NCBI RefSeq assembly: GCF_017464355.1
Contig: NZ_JAFUAG010000041.1
Coordinates: 248,001 to 312,000, forward strand
Direction: 5' to 3'
Source: Ruminococcus sp.
Lineage (GTDB): Bacteria; Bacillota; Clostridia; Oscillospirales; Ruminococcaceae
Length of the DNA: 64,000 nucleotides
The notes below the pieces were generated by a model that saw only the letters and a program-made list of their open reading frames with translations, was not told where the DNA came from and searched no databases. Each line of letters begins with the position of its first letter. The stretch's first letter is position 1. Below, piece after piece: positions 56,528 to 63,440 of this stretch. Made by a program: the position numbers and the translations under genes.

Positions 56528-56564
56528 CAAAATAAACGACCGCGGAAGTCCCGCGGCCGTTTTC
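56528..56564 (-). terminator. Terminator of the McrBC-like/SipW cluster
   Basis: ACGACCGCGG and CCGCGGCCGT form a GC-rich stem. On the minus strand GTTTATTTT follows. It lies just after the last gene of the cluster. Confidence 0.8.
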
Positions 56565-56569
56565 ATGTT

Positions 56570-56794
56570 TTAAAGCGAATTCAGCTTTTTCTGCAGTTCG
56601 ATCATGTGGTTGCGGCAGGCAGTTATCTCGCCTGTGTACTTGTTGAACCACTCAACGTCGTTCTCGTTAGGCTCTTCCTGCAGAAGCACCGCCTGTACCA
56701 GTGCCGACTGTGATCTTGAACGCTTGCGCTCGATCTCTTCGATAGTCTGTCTGCATATCTTGATCTCGCGTTTAAGCTTTCTCTTTTCATTCAT
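56570..56794 (-). CDS. Small charged coiled-coil protein (74 aa), last gene of the cluster
   Basis: I do not recognise this protein. It is highly charged and helical (NEKRKLKREIKICRQTIEEI, SQSALVQAVLLQEEP, MIELQKKLNSL), without signal peptide, so a cytoplasmic coiled-coil adaptor or subunit is likely. AGGTGAGA lies just before the ATG. It is 14 nt from the upstream membrane protein gene and is followed by the operon terminator, so it belongs to the McrBC-like/SipW cluster. Confidence 0.7.
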   Translation of the reverse strand: MNEKRKLKREIKICRQTIEEIERKRSRSQSALVQAVLLQEEPNENDVEWFNKYTGEITACRNHMIELQKKLNSL

Positions 56795-56808
56795 TTTATC
56801 TCACCTCA

Positions 56809-57261
56809 TCAATAACCTTTTTTATCTACCGAATCGACTATAGCCTGCGCCTCATCGTAGCCCTTATCCAGGTCTGAACTGATATCGTCCAGCGCTGTTT
56901 TCAGGTCTTCCAGCTTAGCTGTCATCTGCTCGGGGTATTTTATCATGCAGGTCGTAACTTCGTTTATGATGACCTGGTCATTTCCCATATCCTCTATGAG
57001 GAACGAGTAAGAGTTCGCGCAGGTAACATAGCTTGTTATCCTGCGGTATCTCAAGTCAACATCGCCGCTGTTTTTGAGATACAGTTCTATCTCTTTACTT
57101 GCGTGTGAAAGCTCAGTCTTGTACTGCTTTTTGTAGGTCTCCTGCACCCTGTGGGTCTCGTCGATATATAGCGCTATGAAGACCAGAAGTGTTATCAGTG
57201 TAACTATCCAGAGTATGATCGCAGTTATCATTCTGCGTTTCATTATTTTCTCTTGATTCAA
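56809..57261 (-). CDS. Single-pass membrane protein of unknown function (150 aa)
   Basis: The protein has one N-terminal membrane helix (about residues 11-33, ITAIILWIVTLITLLVFIAL) and a roughly 115-residue helical extracytoplasmic part with two cysteines (YVTCANSY, VTTCMIKYP) that could form a disulfide. No known domain is seen. It begins at TTG overlapping the upstream stop as TTGA, with GGAGG 9 nt away; an ATG at 57243 is an alternative. The overlap indicates coupled synthesis with the 1007-residue protein. Confidence 0.72.
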   Translation of the reverse strand: MNQEKIMKRRMITAIILWIVTLITLLVFIALYIDETHRVQETYKKQYKTELSHASKEIELYLKNSGDVDLRYRRITSYVTCANSYSFLIEDMGNDQVIINEVTTCMIKYPEQMTAKLEDLKTALDDISSDLDKGYDEAQAIVDSVDKKGY

Positions 57262-60200
57262 CCGATCTCACCTCCGTCTTCTCCTGTATCGCTGCTGTTA
57301 TCCTCAGGGGGCTCAGATGCAGCGCTTTTGACCTCCTCCGCCTGATAACCTATCTCTGCCAGCCGCTGCTTTTCCTTTTCGATGGCAGCCCGCATAAGTT
57401 CCTGTTTGTGTTCTTCAGCAGATATCTTTTTGTTCTCACTGACTTCCTTGCTTATCTTTGCCAGAGATCTTAGTTCAAGGATAAATATAGCAGCTACAGG
57501 GATGATCACGCATATCATCAGTATCTTCCTGGGACTTGCAAAGCTGTTCACCCATATGAAGAACCTGGCTTTGCCTGTGTATTTGCCCACTATCTTGTCG
57601 GGTTTTACCGCCACTCTGTCGCTGATGTCATTGGCGTCGCCCTTTGTGATGAACGTGCCGTCTTCACAGACCTTAGCTATCCTGTGGGTCACAAGCAGCC
57701 CGTAGATATCCGTCTGCTCTGAGTAGAAAGAGATTATATCTCCCTGTTTAAGCGTCGAAGGATCTGTTTTCTCCACCACGATGTACTCATCAACGTGTAT
57801 AGAAGGCTCCATGCTTCCCGTAACGACTCTGAGAATGCTCTTTCCGAAAACATCGACTACCTTGTTGCGTGCTGCACAGATCATAACATAGGCCGTGAAT
57901 ATGACAGCTGCAATGAGTATCACGGTTGTGATGACATTTGCTATCCTGCGAACGGTGCTATCCTCATTATCAGGACTGCTGTGTTCAGTGCTTTCGCCGT
58001 TCTGTATCTTATGAAGAAGTGCCTGCTCCTGCTCCTTGCGCTTATTTCTGTGGCTATCATCAAAGGCTCTGCGCTGTTCTTCGATATGTCGGCGTACCTT
58101 CTCGATAGCACTGACATGATATTCCTTGTACAGCCGCTTCATCTCTGTATTGATAGCCTGCTGCTCCTCGGGAGTTCTCTTGGGCGGGTTGTATACAGGT
58201 TTTGGCTTGCCCTTCATCTGGGCTTTCTTGCGCTTCTTGAACTTGTAGTCGTCTATGCTCCTCAGCAAGCGGTACTTGAAGGTCTTTGCATACTTCTTGT
58301 AGTAGACCTCCATAGCATTGCGCTTTTCCAGTTCTTCCTGCTTTTGGCGCTTCTTCTCTTCCTTTTCCGCAAGCATACGCTTGTAGTCGGGATTGTCTGT
58401 GTCCTTCGGTATGATACCGAAGAGTATGACCAGCAGGTGCCTTATCAGCCTTGGTATAGCATATATAGGGTTCTTTGAGTATTCCTTGTATATAGTCCTG
58501 AACGGCTTGTTCTGGAAATACTCTCTATCCGCTTTGAGTCTTGCTGCACGCTCGGCCTCTCTGCGTTCCTTTTCCTTGCGCTGCTGCTCCATCTTGAGCC
58601 TTGCGGCCACAGCTCTGGGGTCCTCGAACTCGGCTTCCTGTTCTTCCTCTGCCATTTCCTCAATAGCAGCCTTAGCCTGCTCGATCTCTTCCTCGGTGAC
58701 CTGCTCGTAAGCTTCCTTTTCAAGCTCTTCTTCCGTAGGCTCGTTGTTTATCTCATCGCTGTCAAGACCCTCGGCCTCACCCAGCTCGCTTCGCATTTTG
58801 CTTTTGTTCAGGCTTATGCGCTCACGTTCAGCAGCTGCACGTTCTTCTTCCTCACGGCGCTTGCGTTCTTCTTCCTCACGCCGCCGCATATCTTCCAGAC
58901 GTGCTTGACGTTCCGCCTCTTCCGCAGCAAGCCGACGCTCTTCTTCTTCCTGCTCTCTGCGCTTCTGTTCGAGCATTTCCTGGAGCCTGCGTTCTTCCTC
59001 TTCTTTGCGCTTACGGATACGTTCCAGTTCTTCCTGTCTTGCTTCTTCGATACGGCGCTGTTCTTCCTGCCGTTTCTCTTCTTCAAGACGCAGCTGTTCG
59101 GCCTTCTGCCGTTCAGCTTCTTTCTGCGCTATGAATTCCCGTTCGATATCTATTACGGTATTTACTTCATCGAAAACCTGTCTGATATCCTGGGGAAGAT
59201 TTTTGCGTATCTTGAAGTCACCTTCAGTTGCCACATAACCTGCCACACCCTCAGCGATGATCCCGTAATCACCCGAAAGCTCACCACTGAAGTGTTTAAC
59301 TACCTTAGGTGCAGTCTTCTTGAACTTCTGGGTCTTTAATTCCGTGAGCCCCTTGGCCTTGCCCTTGTCATCGGTGTATGACCTGAACAGCAGCAAATTG
59401 AGGATAACAAGCTTATAGAAATCCTCAATATAGTTTTCCTGAGGTTTTAAAGCTGTGTCTTCAACGTTTATCTCATAGCCTACCTTCTCGTAGCTTTCGA
59501 TATACTGCCACAGGGTCAGGCAGGCTTTCAGGTCAACGTTTTTCATGATAGCGTTGGTACGCATGATAGGAGGGCGCACATAAGTGTTTCCCAGCTTCTG
59601 GCATAGTTCGGAACCCTTGTAGCCCTCAATGGCCTTTTTCAGCTTCTCAACTCTCTGCCATACAGTGTACCCGCTTTTATTGTAGCTGTCAAGGCTTGAA
59701 GTTGACTCCAGCTTGACTTCTATTTTCAGTTTTCCGCCTGCACCATCGTCCACCGTGGTATCGTAACCCAGCGAGAAGACTTCCTCGTCCCTGGCGACCT
59801 GTGCCAGCTTTTCGTATCTTGTGCTTATGAAGATATACAGCCTGTCAACCAGTGTGTTGACAAACTTGTTCTCGTAGGTCATAAGGCTTTCTTCCTTATG
59901 AACGTTAAGCACCTTTGACGGCGTTATCTTGCCTGTTTTTTTATCATAGCTCTGTATGAGGTCTGTATGCTGTGCCAGATGCTTAACCGATTCAACGGTG
60001 ATCTTTCTTGAAAGCGCGATCGGAACTATCTCCTCAACGTCTTCAATGGTCCGCCTCGGATTTCTCAGCACGTTGTCAAGATGTATCAGCCCGTTCTCAA
60101 TAGCTTCTACCCAGCTTACGTCTATGGCCTTCGCCATAAGCTTCTTGTTCATGGCGAAAGTATTCTTGCTCGAATGCAGCAGGGTATCCAGCGACTCAAA

Positions 60201-60281
60201 CAGCTCATCGTCTTCAAACAGACCTGTTGATTCCTTAAAATCCTCATACCACTTGCCGTACAAGCTATCCAATCGCCTCAC
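57258..60281 (-). CDS. Composite protein: DUF2357/McrC-like region, charged coiled coil and SipW-type signal peptidase domain
   Basis: This 1007-residue protein is unusual. Residues 1-390 resemble the DUF2357 family that accompanies McrB-like ATPases (ESLMTYENKFVNTLVDRLYI, GYEINVEDTALKPQ, NYIEDFYKLVILNLLLFRSY). Residues 385-600 are an extreme Glu/Arg/Lys coiled coil. A hydrophobic stretch (IPRLIRHLLVILFGIIP) is followed by a basic region and then, from 777, a signal peptidase I domain of the eukaryote/SipW type: membrane helix 780-803, VVTGSMEPSI with Ser823, VTHRI with His866, TKGDANDISD with Asp882, second helix 917-936. I did not see the PD-(D/E)xK nuclease motif of McrC-like proteins. GTG start at 60281; TTG at 60272 has a better-spaced ribosome site (AGGTG). 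Confidence 0.72.
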   Translation of the reverse strand: MRRLDSLYGKWYEDFKESTGLFEDDELFESLDTLLHSSKNTFAMNKKLMAKAIDVSWVEAIENGLIHLDNVLRNPRRTIEDVEEIVPIALSRKITVESVKHLAQHTDLIQSYDKKTGKITPSKVLNVHKEESLMTYENKFVNTLVDRLYIFISTRYEKLAQVARDEEVFSLGYDTTVDDGAGGKLKIEVKLESTSSLDSYNKSGYTVWQRVEKLKKAIEGYKGSELCQKLGNTYVRPPIMRTNAIMKNVDLKACLTLWQYIESYEKVGYEINVEDTALKPQENYIEDFYKLVILNLLLFRSYTDDKGKAKGLTELKTQKFKKTAPKVVKHFSGELSGDYGIIAEGVAGYVATEGDFKIRKNLPQDIRQVFDEVNTVIDIEREFIAQKEAERQKAEQLRLEEEKRQEEQRRIEEARQEELERIRKRKEEEERRLQEMLEQKRREQEEEERRLAAEEAERQARLEDMRRREEEERKRREEEERAAAERERISLNKSKMRSELGEAEGLDSDEINNEPTEEELEKEAYEQVTEEEIEQAKAAIEEMAEEEQEAEFEDPRAVAARLKMEQQRKEKERREAERAARLKADREYFQNKPFRTIYKEYSKNPIYAIPRLIRHLLVILFGIIPKDTDNPDYKRMLAEKEEKKRQKQEELEKRNAMEVYYKKYAKTFKYRLLRSIDDYKFKKRKKAQMKGKPKPVYNPPKRTPEEQQAINTEMKRLYKEYHVSAIEKVRRHIEEQRRAFDDSHRNKRKEQEQALLHKIQNGESTEHSSPDNEDSTVRRIANVITTVILIAAVIFTAYVMICAARNKVVDVFGKSILRVVTGSMEPSIHVDEYIVVEKTDPSTLKQGDIISFYSEQTDIYGLLVTHRIAKVCEDGTFITKGDANDISDRVAVKPDKIVGKYTGKARFFIWVNSFASPRKILMICVIIPVAAIFILELRSLAKISKEVSENKKISAEEHKQELMRAAIEKEKQRLAEIGYQAEEVKSAASEPPEDNSSDTGEDGGEIG

Positions 60282-60362
60282 CTGCCTTTATCCGAATTAT
60301 AAAGCAATAACACTTGACATCGTAGATATATCAAGTCAAGCGTATTGCCTTGTCACAGAATA

Positions 60363-61946
60363 TCAGAACAGCTTTTGCAGTCTTTCCAGATATTCTATAG
60401 ACTCTTTCATCTTGTTTTTGCCAAAGGATTTGTTCATGTAAACTACCAGCTCCCTCAGTTCATCTCTGAGCATAGCCAGGTTCAGCGACTCAAACTTTCT
60501 GAATATCTTGGTAGCAAGTACGTAGTCGATACCTTCCAGCTCCTCACCGCCGCAAGCCACATAAACGGGTACGAACAGACCCATCTGCTTGAGTATACGG
60601 TTACCGAAAGCCACACGCAGCTTTTCTATTACCCAGAGGTCGAGCTGCTGTATCTTCTTGAGGTTTTCCTGAGATATGGGATATTTGTCAAAAGCTTCTT
60701 TGAAAAGCTGATCCAGGTGGTCGAAGCCCAGATTGATAGGACCTGTATCAGGTGCATCGAAGGCGATACCCTTAGCGTCCAGATTGATAGGCTGGGCACG
60801 GTCGTATACCTTATCGGAGATAGCGTAGGTCGAGTCATCGTTGTTCGCTGTACCTATGTACCAAACGTTCTGGGGAATGCGCAGCTTGCCTCGGTTGAGG
60901 TTGACAGGGTCAGTGCTCCATACATTGGGCACTATGTCAAGCTCCCACTCATCAGCATTGGGCATTTCCAGTATGGACAGCATCTCTGCGAAGTAATACT
61001 CAACTCTCGCGATATTCATCTCATCGAGAAGTATAAGGTTTACATCGTTGTTGTAGCTTGAAGAATATATCCTCTTGAGAACTTCAGTTTCATTGAAGTT
61101 CTTAGTGAATTCATTGAAGTAGCCGAACAGCTCGGTACGGTCACGCCAGGAAGGCTGTACCGAAGCAATGGTAGTATCGTTCTGCAGGAACTTACCAAAG
61201 GAGTAGGGAAGTGAAGTTTTACCGGTACCTGAGATACCCTGCAGTATAATAAGCTTTGTTGAAGCCATGCCCGCTATGAACAGACGAATGGTCTTGGGTT
61301 CATAGAACAGGTGCATACGGGAGCAGGCAAAGTTTCTGTAGGTATCGCAAAGACCCTCCAGCGTGATGCCGTTGTCATACTCAGGCGGGGTATAGCTGCG
61401 GTAGAAGCTGTCCACTTCCATAAGTCTGGAAAATCTTCTGTCCGCTGTCTGTATAACACCGTCTTCGGCAACTTCGCCTTCAACCACAGGTGCGCCGTTC
61501 TCACTGACTTCACCAATAGCAGCCCCGGCACCGCCTCCTGCAAGAGAAAGTGCCCCCGAAGAAGGTATGCCCATCTGTGCGACTTTCATAGCCATGATCT
61601 CGTCTTTTTCCTTGGTCATCTTAAGTACCTGTCTTTGCAGGTCAGCGATCTCTTCCAGCAGATCCTCGTTGCTTACGATAGAATGCCTGAACCTGACATA
61701 TTTCCTGAAAGCCAGCACGATCATAAGCCCTATCAGCACGAACACTGCGATAACAAGGATTATGGCCAGTATGGAAAGCACCCAGCCCAGCGCTCCGAAG
61801 TCAGTAGAATAGGTCTTGAAAATATTTATGTAATTTTTGATATTAAATATCTGTTTCAGCCCCTGCCAGAGCCCGCTGAATATGGTAGCAAAGCCTTTCA
61901 GCAGCTCGGAGATGAAAACAAAAAACCATTTAAGAAATCCGGTCAT
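60363..61946 (-). CDS. Membrane-anchored McrB-like AAA+ ATPase
   Basis: The 527-residue protein has amphipathic/hydrophobic N-terminal segments (residues 4-35) and a strong membrane helix (about 54-80), a short coiled coil (92-120), a Gly/Ala-rich linker and an AAA+ domain from about 195. The domain carries Walker A LQGISGTGKTSLP (Lys243), Walker B NLILLDEMNIARVEYYFAEM (Asp308, Glu309), sensor region WYIGTANNDDST and an arginine in KVYDRAQPINL. The TANNDDS segment resembles the MNTADRS motif of McrB. Known McrB proteins are soluble motors of McrBC restriction; a membrane anchor is unusual. AAGGAGAA is 5 nt before the ATG. Confidence 0.82.
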   Translation of the reverse strand: MTGFLKWFFVFISELLKGFATIFSGLWQGLKQIFNIKNYINIFKTYSTDFGALGWVLSILAIILVIAVFVLIGLMIVLAFRKYVRFRHSIVSNEDLLEEIADLQRQVLKMTKEKDEIMAMKVAQMGIPSSGALSLAGGGAGAAIGEVSENGAPVVEGEVAEDGVIQTADRRFSRLMEVDSFYRSYTPPEYDNGITLEGLCDTYRNFACSRMHLFYEPKTIRLFIAGMASTKLIILQGISGTGKTSLPYSFGKFLQNDTTIASVQPSWRDRTELFGYFNEFTKNFNETEVLKRIYSSSYNNDVNLILLDEMNIARVEYYFAEMLSILEMPNADEWELDIVPNVWSTDPVNLNRGKLRIPQNVWYIGTANNDDSTYAISDKVYDRAQPINLDAKGIAFDAPDTGPINLGFDHLDQLFKEAFDKYPISQENLKKIQQLDLWVIEKLRVAFGNRILKQMGLFVPVYVACGGEELEGIDYVLATKIFRKFESLNLAMLRDELRELVVYMNKSFGKNKMKESIEYLERLQKLF

Positions 61947-61983
61947 AGCCTTCTCCTTATATTTCTATATCATCAATGAGCAT

Positions 61984-62631
61984 TTATCCCTCGGTATCTC
62001 CGCCGGCTTCCTGCTCCTTCTTCTGTGCTGCCAGGTATTCCTCAATAGCACGCTTCTTGATCTCTTCTTCGTCCTCTTCGGAAAGTGCAGGCTTTTTCAG
62101 TTCAATAAGTGTAACGATGAACTTGTAAAGCTCAACGAAGAAGAAGATAGCCATCGGTATAACTATGCAAACAAAGAAACCTGTCTTTGTCCTGAGAAAG
62201 CTCATGACCTTTCCGAAGCCCCCCAGCTTGAACCCTGTCCATTTGCCGATAATGTCACCTGTAAGTACAGGAACATCATCATCGAGGGAATTGTTGTCGC
62301 CTCGTGTAACGAAGCTCCTGCCGTTATCCAGGTCTGTTATCTCAACGATACGGTGGGTGTTCTTGACCTTCTGTCCCTGGATAATAGTCCAGAAGGTGAT
62401 GACATCGCCTTCCTTAAGCGAGTATACATCATCGACTTCCTTACACATTATCAGGTCGTCCTTGGCAAAAGTGGGTTTCATAGAGTCAGACTCAACGGTC
62501 ATCGGGATAAATCCCAGAAGATTTGATACACCGTTGTTTCTGCTTGAAGAGAAGACCATGATAGTCACCAGCAGTGCCAGTATAAGTATGATCCAGACCA
62601 GCACGTTCACAATTACTTTCAAAACTTTCAT
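61984..62631 (-). CDS. SipW-type (Ser-His) signal peptidase I
   Basis: The 215-residue protein has an N-terminal membrane helix (7-27), ESDSMKPTF with Ser50, the KVKNTHRIVEI motif with His93 in place of the bacterial lysine, TRGDNNSLDD with Asp112, and a second membrane helix (152-172), then a charged Glu/Lys tail. Ser-His catalysis and two flanking helices are typical of the archaeal/eukaryotic and Bacillus SipW class, which in Bacillus processes the biofilm fibre protein TasA. TTAGGAGA lies 8 nt before the ATG. It is 20 nt from the TasA-like gene and 37 nt from the AAA+ gene. Confidence 0.87.
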   Translation of the reverse strand: MKVLKVIVNVLVWIILILALLVTIMVFSSSRNNGVSNLLGFIPMTVESDSMKPTFAKDDLIMCKEVDDVYSLKEGDVITFWTIIQGQKVKNTHRIVEITDLDNGRSFVTRGDNNSLDDDVPVLTGDIIGKWTGFKLGGFGKVMSFLRTKTGFFVCIVIPMAIFFFVELYKFIVTLIELKKPALSEEDEEEIKKRAIEEYLAAQKKEQEAGGDTEG

Positions 62632-62651
62632 ATATTATATCTCCTAACATT

Positions 62652-63368
62652 TTATGTTGTTTCAACTATCTTGAAGTCCATGCCGAGCTTCAGCGTGCCG
62701 CCGATAAGCTCGTCTGTACAGTCAGGGTCATTGCCTTCGAGCCAGATAACAACAGTATATTTATCTTTGCCCTGGGGTTCAAACCCATTGTGGTCAGTAG
62801 TCATTACCACTGTTGATGAGGTAAACTCGCTGTCGCAGTCACCCTCTTTGCCGCCTCCGTTGGACTTTGTCTTACCGTAAACGGTTTTCTCACCGTTTTT
62901 GTAGACCGCCACACGTACAGCTTCATCGACATGGTTGGTGACATTCTCTATGGTCATCTCGCCCTCGTAGCTTATGGTGTCATCGCCTGCATTTATAAGG
63001 TAAAATGTATAAGCGATATAGCTTTCGCCGTTGTGACTGCCATTGATATTATCGATATTGTCAGGCAGGTCTTCACCGCTTATATTTGTCATGTCATAGA
63101 CGATGTTTGCATTCAGCACTGAGTTCGTTTTGTCAAATTCAGGAACTTCTGATAGGGTAAGGCCCTGTCGCATCATGTCATATTTATTGATCTTAACTGT
63201 AAAGCTGCCGTACTTGTCGTAGAAATACGATATTGCATAAGCTATTGCGATAACCGCGACCAGCAGTATGACAAGAAGCCCCAATATCCTCATTACAACA
63301 CTGTGTCGCTTGACTTCTTTGGCAGTACGCCGAAGCTCCAGCACATCAGTGATCTTTGTCTCTGCCAA
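62652..63368 (-). CDS. TasA/camelysin-like membrane-exported protein, probable SipW substrate
   Basis: The 238-residue protein has a basic cytoplasmic N-terminus, a hydrophobic segment (VVMRILGLLVILLVAVIAIA) ending in AYA, a possible cleavage site, and then SYFYDKYGSFTVKIN. The rest is beta-rich: YIAYTFYLINAGDDTISYEG, AVRVAVYKNGEKTVYG, and YTVVIWLEGNDPDCTDELIG before LKLGMDFKI. The last motif is characteristic of TasA/camelysin-type proteins processed by SipW. I chose TTG at 63368 because GAAGGGG is close upstream; an in-frame start at 63419 has no such site. It is the first gene of the tight cluster. Confidence 0.72.
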   Translation of the reverse strand: MAETKITDVLELRRTAKEVKRHSVVMRILGLLVILLVAVIAIAYAISYFYDKYGSFTVKINKYDMMRQGLTLSEVPEFDKTNSVLNANIVYDMTNISGEDLPDNIDNINGSHNGESYIAYTFYLINAGDDTISYEGEMTIENVTNHVDEAVRVAVYKNGEKTVYGKTKSNGGGKEGDCDSEFTSSTVVMTTDHNGFEPQGKDKYTVVIWLEGNDPDCTDELIGGTLKLGMDFKIVETT

Positions 63369-63440
63369 ATCGTTCACCCCTTCATAATATTCTATAATTC
63401 TATCATGCAGAAATGTCATGCAAAGTGATTTTACTTGTCA

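Follow-up and report, generated by a model that had tools for sequence, protein, structure and literature searches.

The window analysed here, a 64,000-nucleotide stretch of Ruminococcus sp. contig NZ_JAFUAG010000041.1 numbered 1-64,000, holds near its right end a minus-strand operon encoding a membrane-anchored McrB-like AAA+ protein, a DUF2357 protein, two SipW-type signal peptidases and a TasA-like protein; coordinates past 64,000 lie outside the window, in the same numbering. The six adjacent minus-strand open reading frames (ORFs) described in an earlier note on this DNA are all present, with gaps of 14, -4, 81, 37 and 20 nt. A seventh gene of the run, an EAL-like gene of 255 codons, starts at 64208, with its stop 21 nt upstream of 63419. 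The features of the operon are as follows.

56540..56556, minus strand: terminator-like stem just after the last stop, CCGCGG-gactt-CCGCGG then tcgtttattttg in minus-strand reading
56570..56794, minus strand: ORF for cc74, a charged protein of 74 aa with no hydrophobic segment
56809..57261, minus strand: ORF for tm150, a one-pass membrane protein with one hydrophobic segment (residues 15-33)
57258..60281, minus strand: composite of DUF2357 (McrC N-terminal type), a long charged helix and a SipW-type signal peptidase
60363..61946, minus strand: membrane-anchored McrB-like AAA+ nucleoside triphosphatase (NTPase), with Walker A GISGTGKTS, Walker B LLDEMN and TANNDDS
61984..62631, minus strand: stand-alone SipW-type signal peptidase, S-H-D pattern retained
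62652..63368, minus strand: TasA-like protein with N-terminal membrane anchor, start revised from 63419 to TTG 63368
63441..64208, cut at the window end (64000), minus strand: EAL-like protein with Q in place of the EAL glutamate (PF00563, E=2.1e-30)
64265-64237, minus strand: promoter before the EAL-like gene, matching the sigma-70 consensus at 12/12 positions

The true start of the TasA-like gene is probably the TTG at 63368, because GAAGGGG precedes it and relatives start there; 72 nt separate it from the end of the EAL-like gene. As for the single terminator claimed in the earlier note, a stem and a T-rich stretch do follow the last stop; the stem, at 56556-56540, is not among the minus-strand sites listed by the consensus scan. 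The promoter scan returned 50 promoter-like sites against 37.8 expected, so its weaker calls mean little.

Conservation of the operon was counted in the best 80 of 175 relatives, each gene being scored only in loci long enough for it. Gene order is identical in all 54 loci spanning the whole run, so the joint conservation on which the earlier proposal hinged is found. The EAL-like gene is present in 71/71 loci, the TasA-like gene in 74/74, SipW in 77/77, the DUF2357 protein in 67/67, cc74 in 59/59 and tm150 in 64/65, with the one locus lacking tm150 (L052) situated at a contig edge. Six further loci from four other families, hand-chosen and non-random, all carry the EAL-like, TasA-like, SipW, AAA+, DUF2357 and second SipW genes and a pilin with a SipW signal within about 21 kb; cc74 occurs in three of the six, and tm150 was detected in none of them. 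At locus L172 the EAL-like gene is split in two.

The host is a Ruminococcus close to R. albus, and its AAA+ protein shares 93% identity with the R. albus 8 protein. The AAA+ gene occurs in 29 of 61 related genomes (28 at E<=1e-100), including 25 of 29 from the same genus. Sampling of the order gave matches in 30 of 295 genomes; besides the window's own, 23 of these have SipW beside the AAA+ gene, one breaks off at a contig end and five hold McrB-like proteins that are shorter or of another kind. Sampling of the phylum gave matches in 49 of 398 genomes, all except the own genome in the AAA+ region only, without the N-terminal anchor. No SipW match lies within about 1.5 kb at 29 anchorless phylum loci with profiles built from Ruminococcus, and spread beyond the order is therefore not claimed. 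AAA+ identity parallels trigger-factor identity (rho 0.87, 23 genomes, family checked); the comparison left out G017, G019, G025 and G055 (split or partial) and G033 (weak), and retained G018 and G020 despite partial AAA+ matches. On these sequences the operon, read below as an assembly machine, is probably inherited vertically. Loci L136-L139 hold shorter McrB-like proteins (421-446 aa) with the anchor region absent and no SipW match nearby; a DUF2357 partner is present in three of the four, and genomes G112 and G166 have two copies.

Divergent to the operon lie five pilin-like genes and a gene for a protein of 3462 aa, within the following features, all beyond the window.

64664-64692, plus strand: promoter before the divergent gene set (consensus scan)
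64782-64892: leader-only pilin fragment
64890-64916: left end of a putative integrative element in the window genome
65027-66106: pil1, with SipW-type signal STFAWFT
66323-70443: pil2-pil5, pilin-like
70433-80821: surface protein of 3462 aa, no Pfam match
81152-83557: element backbone genes of the window genome

An ORF with a SipW motif lies within the covered flanks at 36 of the 80 loci, and 44 show none there; as a rough yardstick in other units, ORFs and not loci, 0/97 ORFs in window positions 1-56000 carry one. In four of the chosen loci from other families (L176-L179) the operon itself contains a pilin gene, flanked by the TasA-like and SipW genes; in the remaining two a pilin shares the contig with the AAA+ gene, at most about 16 kb away. 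Across the 61 related genomes, a pilin beyond the operon's own TasA-like protein is found in 25 of 28 with the AAA+ gene (E<=1e-100) versus 2 of 33 others (Fisher 1.8e-11, kinship uncorrected). Among the four genomes of the genus that have no AAA+ gene, three also lack pilins, two of these being 99% complete, while G010 (70% complete) has one weak pilin match. Between the window genome and R. albus 7, the giant protein is 25-30% identical, pil3-5 28-31% and pil2 65%, with pil1 alignable over residues 3-58 only, against 90% for the AAA+ protein, 85% for the TasA-like protein, 81% for SipW and 78% for the EAL-like protein. Divergence of the fibre proteins against a conserved machine is as expected of an exposed filament.

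The AAA+ profile matches E. coli McrB structures (E=1e-4), and the protein has a single hydrophobic segment at residues 59-77. TANNDDST is present in 133 of 135 matches of a regular expression built for that motif, in which genomes are counted repeatedly. Its N-N-D-D can be read as NxD followed by D, yet it aligns without gaps to the NxxD of E. coli McrB. The FtsB/DivIC model is absent from the 25 listed of the 26 families matched by 23 AAA+ members.

The composite exceeds the Pfam cut-offs for DUF2357 (31.7 bits, cut-off 23.3) and Peptidase_S26 (23.5 bits, cut-off 22.9) and the NCBIfam cut-off for archaeal-type signal peptidase I (TIGR02228, 83.2 versus 51.85). No nuclease family, including PD-(D/E)xK, was found in it by Pfam, and its structure model is of low confidence (predicted template modelling score, pTM, 0.29). 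Known folds are matched only in the signal-peptidase part of this model, where LexA domains score equally high, and its DUF2357 part gives no fold match to McrC; with fold matches so confined, absence of a nuclease fold is not proved. Residues 366-500 are modelled with low confidence as one helix, perhaps a coiled coil; a coiled coil and a lone charged helix are not distinguishable in the model. The fusion of DUF2357, coiled coil and SipW described in the earlier note is physically real but not required: among 69 typed loci, the window locus included, the composite is a single gene in 34 and a pair of adjacent genes in 35. On a quick AAA+ tree the one-gene and two-gene forms need five changes, or two when only well-supported branches are counted. 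The fusion probably arose by later joining of neighbouring genes, because the composite is two genes in all six chosen loci of other families.

Both peptidases uphold their assignment as SipW-type signal peptidases. The small SipW scores 90.5 against TIGR02228, also over the cut-off, and the S-x-x-P / HR / GD pattern containing the Ser-His-Asp residues is retained in 80/80 first SipW proteins and in 68/70 second ones, with contig ends truncating both exceptions. Against the Bacillus SipW model NF046067 the two peptidases score under the cut-off (108.1 and 90.5 versus 190).

The TasA/camelysin likeness stands less directly. Pfam, NCBIfam and PADLOC give no family above cut-off for the TasA-like protein (255 aa), but its profile matches that of the neighbouring pil1 with 96.3% probability (hhalign), and in the window genome the two share the ending WLEGxDxxC; by this profile match the TasA-like protein and the SipW-signal pilin are homologous. 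Pfam Peptidase_M73 has 0 matches in the window's own genome, with control matches in B. subtilis, and neither the TasA-like nor the pilin profile found a credible match among the sequences of solved structures. A first look at the TasA-like model with Foldseek gave no clear match; a second gave weak matches, with TasA, bundling pili and cannulae amid integrins and other sandwiches.

Most of the EAL-like protein aligns to EAL structures (best E=6.2e-22). Alignment to Bd1971 places Q at the EAL glutamate and T at the first D of DDFG in the window protein, the latter position being variable in relatives. Phosphodiesterase activity therefore appears unlikely, and a guess would be that the protein acts as a receptor or scaffold. 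GGDEF genes as a test of linkage to cyclic di-GMP (c-di-GMP) are uninformative, being present in 29/29 genus genomes including the four without the AAA+ gene; the AAA+ genome G056 has none, and the window's own genome has 32 GGDEF matches.

In R. albus 7 the fibre genes sit on a mobile element, one insertion site of which is itself a pilin gene. Matches of the pilin profile search include leader-only fragments, which end ..ST-TAA, and leaderless pilins, whose DNA begins TAY-GCN-TGG, the Y-A-W codons of the SipW motif. Leader-only fragments number five (window genome 1, R. albus 7 2, G024 2) and leaderless pilins eight (R. albus 7 4, G024 3, G004 1), spread over three genomes each; L080, a chance leader-like match, and L042, a pilin cut by the contig start, were dropped from the leader scan. 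Six expressed pilins were inspected, with TA at the junction in four and TT in the window genome and R. albus 7. The expressed pil1 at L111:13141 and L174:13391 are element-carried pilins with TT, not TA, at the junction; a TT junction might, as a guess, shield a newcomer pilin from the next insertion.

R. albus 7 carries a 35.57-kb block in two copies, 99.994% identical, on the chromosome (2524077-2559642) and on pRUMAL02 (261546-297111), covered by loci L174, L183, L185, L186, L188 and L191. One end reads TA-ACAGGCTC. In the chromosomal copy a pilin leader precedes this TA end, and the other end borders on the second half of an ATP-binding cassette (ABC) permease gene; on pRUMAL02 the first half of the permease precedes the TA end, and the other end borders on a leaderless pilin. 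The interrupted permease has an open frame of 227 codons versus 439-469 in seven other genomes, and the uninterrupted relatives L193 and L194 read ..GGACT-TA-TGTTTTC.. across the site. Judged from the flanks of the R. albus 7 copies and these intact relatives, the element has entered two genes, each at a TA and one of them at the leader-mature junction of a pilin. Either a genuine exchange or a misassembly of the identical copies explains why the flanks are crossed between replicons. The best half-site pair, taken from two different elements, has GATGACC and GGTCATC, both at a distance of 18 nt from the central TA; in the 35.6-kb element itself the second half-site reads ATGTATC at that position. 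Such symmetry is usual at large serine recombinase attachment sites.

RefSeq annotates three recombinases, an AAA ATPase, a primase, a relaxase, MobC, ParM and IS66 in the R. albus 7 element, and its giant and five pilin genes as hypothetical. With relaxase, serine recombinases and precise ends, the block has the make-up of an integrative mobilizable element. In the window genome the promoter, the leader-only fragment, a left end of the R. albus 7 type, pil1-5 and the giant protein follow in succession, and backbone proteins match those of the R. albus 7 element (ParM-like 97%, NikA/MobC-like 81%, relaxase fragment 71%); the right end lies beyond the contig. Inspection by eye of the left flanks of two R. 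flavefaciens loci found element-backbone-like proteins beside the EAL gene: ParM-, MobC- and relaxase-like proteins at L083 and a serine recombinase at L055. The sole trigger-factor match of R. albus 7 lies on pRUMAL02 (G022:C2:71119-72396), a 352-kb replicon called a plasmid, which may for that reason be a second chromosome.

Some strains also hold what is likely, from its layout, a shufflon-like module for pilin switching. In G024 (L180:4852-13476) leaderless pilins flank a pair of large serine recombinases. One leaderless copy is arranged tail to tail with the expressed pilin, and the junctions of the two are inverted, a layout from which pilin inversion is inferred. The same recombinase pair lies between leaderless pilins on pRUMAL02 of R. 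albus 7 (L175:4120-11534), 84.7% identical over 3.8 kb, and in both modules the junctions fall at AWF codons.

The locus is likely to encode a biogenesis machine of the CoCoPALM type, a class named by Bell et al. (eLife 2024; PMC11090510), for a SipW-processed, TasA-like surface fibre whose genes travel on an exchangeable integrative element. Sec would export pilins bearing the SipW signal (..T/S-Y/F-AWFT), and both SipW-type peptidases, the free one as well as the one joined to DUF2357, would cut them, as their visible active-site pattern allows. The membrane McrB-like AAA+ ring, fuelled by nucleoside triphosphates, may then drive or order subunit release and polymerisation, with DUF2357 stimulating it as McrC does McrB. 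The anchored TasA-like protein could form the fibre base, and the EAL-like protein, without its catalytic glutamate, might gate the machine, perhaps via c-di-GMP binding. The substrates would be the five divergently encoded pilin-like proteins and the giant surface protein. Insertion of the integrative element at a TA in the SipW-motif codons of a pilin, downstream of the resident promoter, could thereby replace the fibre. On balance it also seems probable that a vertical McrB-derived NTPase machine is combined with a horizontal fibre operon of pilins and a giant adhesin, which the element's serine recombinases insert at the pilin TA; the incoming operon would take over the promoter already there and leave the former pilin silent, as a copy lacking its leader, with the shufflon-like switch at the same junctions in some strains.

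Of the two functions offered by the earlier note, the AAA+-driven secretion or fibre machine is the one sustained: the genes stay together, genomes with the AAA+ gene mostly have SipW-signal pilins, and a pilin gene lies inside the operon in four chosen loci. Its alternative, a membrane-linked defence device, taken here as an anti-phage one in which McrB/DUF2357 senses infection and signal peptidases or helical parts act as membrane effector, draws on the standing of McrB and DUF2357 as restriction components, on the match of PADLOC family PDC-M26A to the AAA+ protein and on the classing of the wider clade with Type IV restriction by Bell et al. in the passage concerned (PMC11090510). The sporadic distribution expected of defence is not seen, however, the gene being near-constant in the genus (25/29) and its divergence parallel to that of trigger factor; the neighbourhood is fixed, with SipW and often pilins, and Pfam found no nuclease family in the composite. 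Defence is thus very unlikely.

Quality control, in which ordinary SipW export builds the fibre and the task of AAA+/DUF2357 at the membrane is to extract or clear signal peptides or precursors left uncleaved, would suit the unfoldase habits of AAA+ proteins and the tethering of a peptidase to a DUF2357 protein, and the portion of PMC13082335 concerned derives B. subtilis TasA fibres from a tapA-sipW-tasA operon. It is nonetheless unlikely, since machine and pilins are mostly present or absent together in the sample and an own anchored TasA-like protein in 74/74 loci is more than clearance requires. Least credible, and extremely improbable, is a regulator in which the EAL-like and AAA+ proteins govern SipW-dependent signalling, the fibre genes merely happening to ride on a mobile element. 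The fibre genes do sit on such an element, 44/80 loci show no fibre gene in the covered flanks and GGDEF genes abound in the host, but a pilin gene lies inside the operon of L176-L179, and the element targets a pilin, so that a resident pilin must have preceded it.

The earlier claim that the system is undescribed does not hold, the class having been named CoCoPALM by Bell et al. in a few lines that suggest pilus assembly (PMC11090510). The class comprises an McrB-type GTPase with a membrane segment, a coiled-coil McrC homologue and signal peptidase genes, its marks including an NxD signature in the GTPase and an FtsB-like transmembrane segment plus coiled coil fused to it. The associated signal peptidase genes are present here, beside an McrB-like AAA+ protein with one hydrophobic segment and a DUF2357 protein whose helix may be a coiled coil. 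Those lines give neither gene content nor function; beyond them, this locus contributes the pseudo-EAL protein, the anchored TasA-like protein, the pilins, the giant protein, two SipWs, the fused or split composite and the mobile fibre cargo. The present analysis adds the set of genes, their link to pilins and the mobile cargo, while the class name and the pilus suggestion belong to Bell et al. as far as their lines on the class go (PMC11090510). Among the literature matches listed, nothing besides these lines concerns this operon or element. Other systems likewise join a SipW-type peptidase to TasA-family fibre proteins: tapA-sipW-tasA in B. subtilis and sipW-tasA/calY in B. cereus, in a text (PMC13082335) whose accessible part has 0 matches to 'ATPase', DUF2357 not having been looked for there, and, as a clostridial SipW-linked matrix protein, the BsaA/SipW matrix of Clostridium perfringens in the part of PMC7395162 concerned. 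McrBC type IV restriction (E. coli McrB, PDB 6hz4) has the same AAA+ domain with a DUF2357 partner; unlike it, the partner here goes with a signal peptidase, no nuclease family was found by Pfam, and the genes are in most genomes of the genus.

In Moraxella Piv pilin inversion and the R64 shufflon, silent leaderless pilin copies recombine at a 5' coding junction. The present arrangement resembles both in its silent leaderless copies and 5' coding junction, but differs in its large serine recombinases and in carrying an entire fibre operon on an integrative element. If the proposal is true, common bacteria of the gut and rumen have turned a restriction motor into a machine that builds fibres, CoCoPALM systems gain a testable substrate and role, and a whole surface fibre can be swapped via one two-base site while the assembly machine is kept. 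R. albus and R. flavefaciens are key plant-fibre degraders, and the surface fibre may have a role in attachment to plant fibre.

Two smaller observations concern the remaining genes. Neither cc74 nor tm150 has a family above cut-off in Pfam, NCBIfam or PADLOC; tm150 (56809-57261) gives a weak archaeal flagellin match (21 bits versus a cut-off of 29.5, E=4.6e-4), which perhaps reflects merely its membrane helix. In the window's own genome (G000), contig C31:245602-247065 holds a second SipW match pair with a pilin-like match, the genome's only AAA+ match being on another contig.

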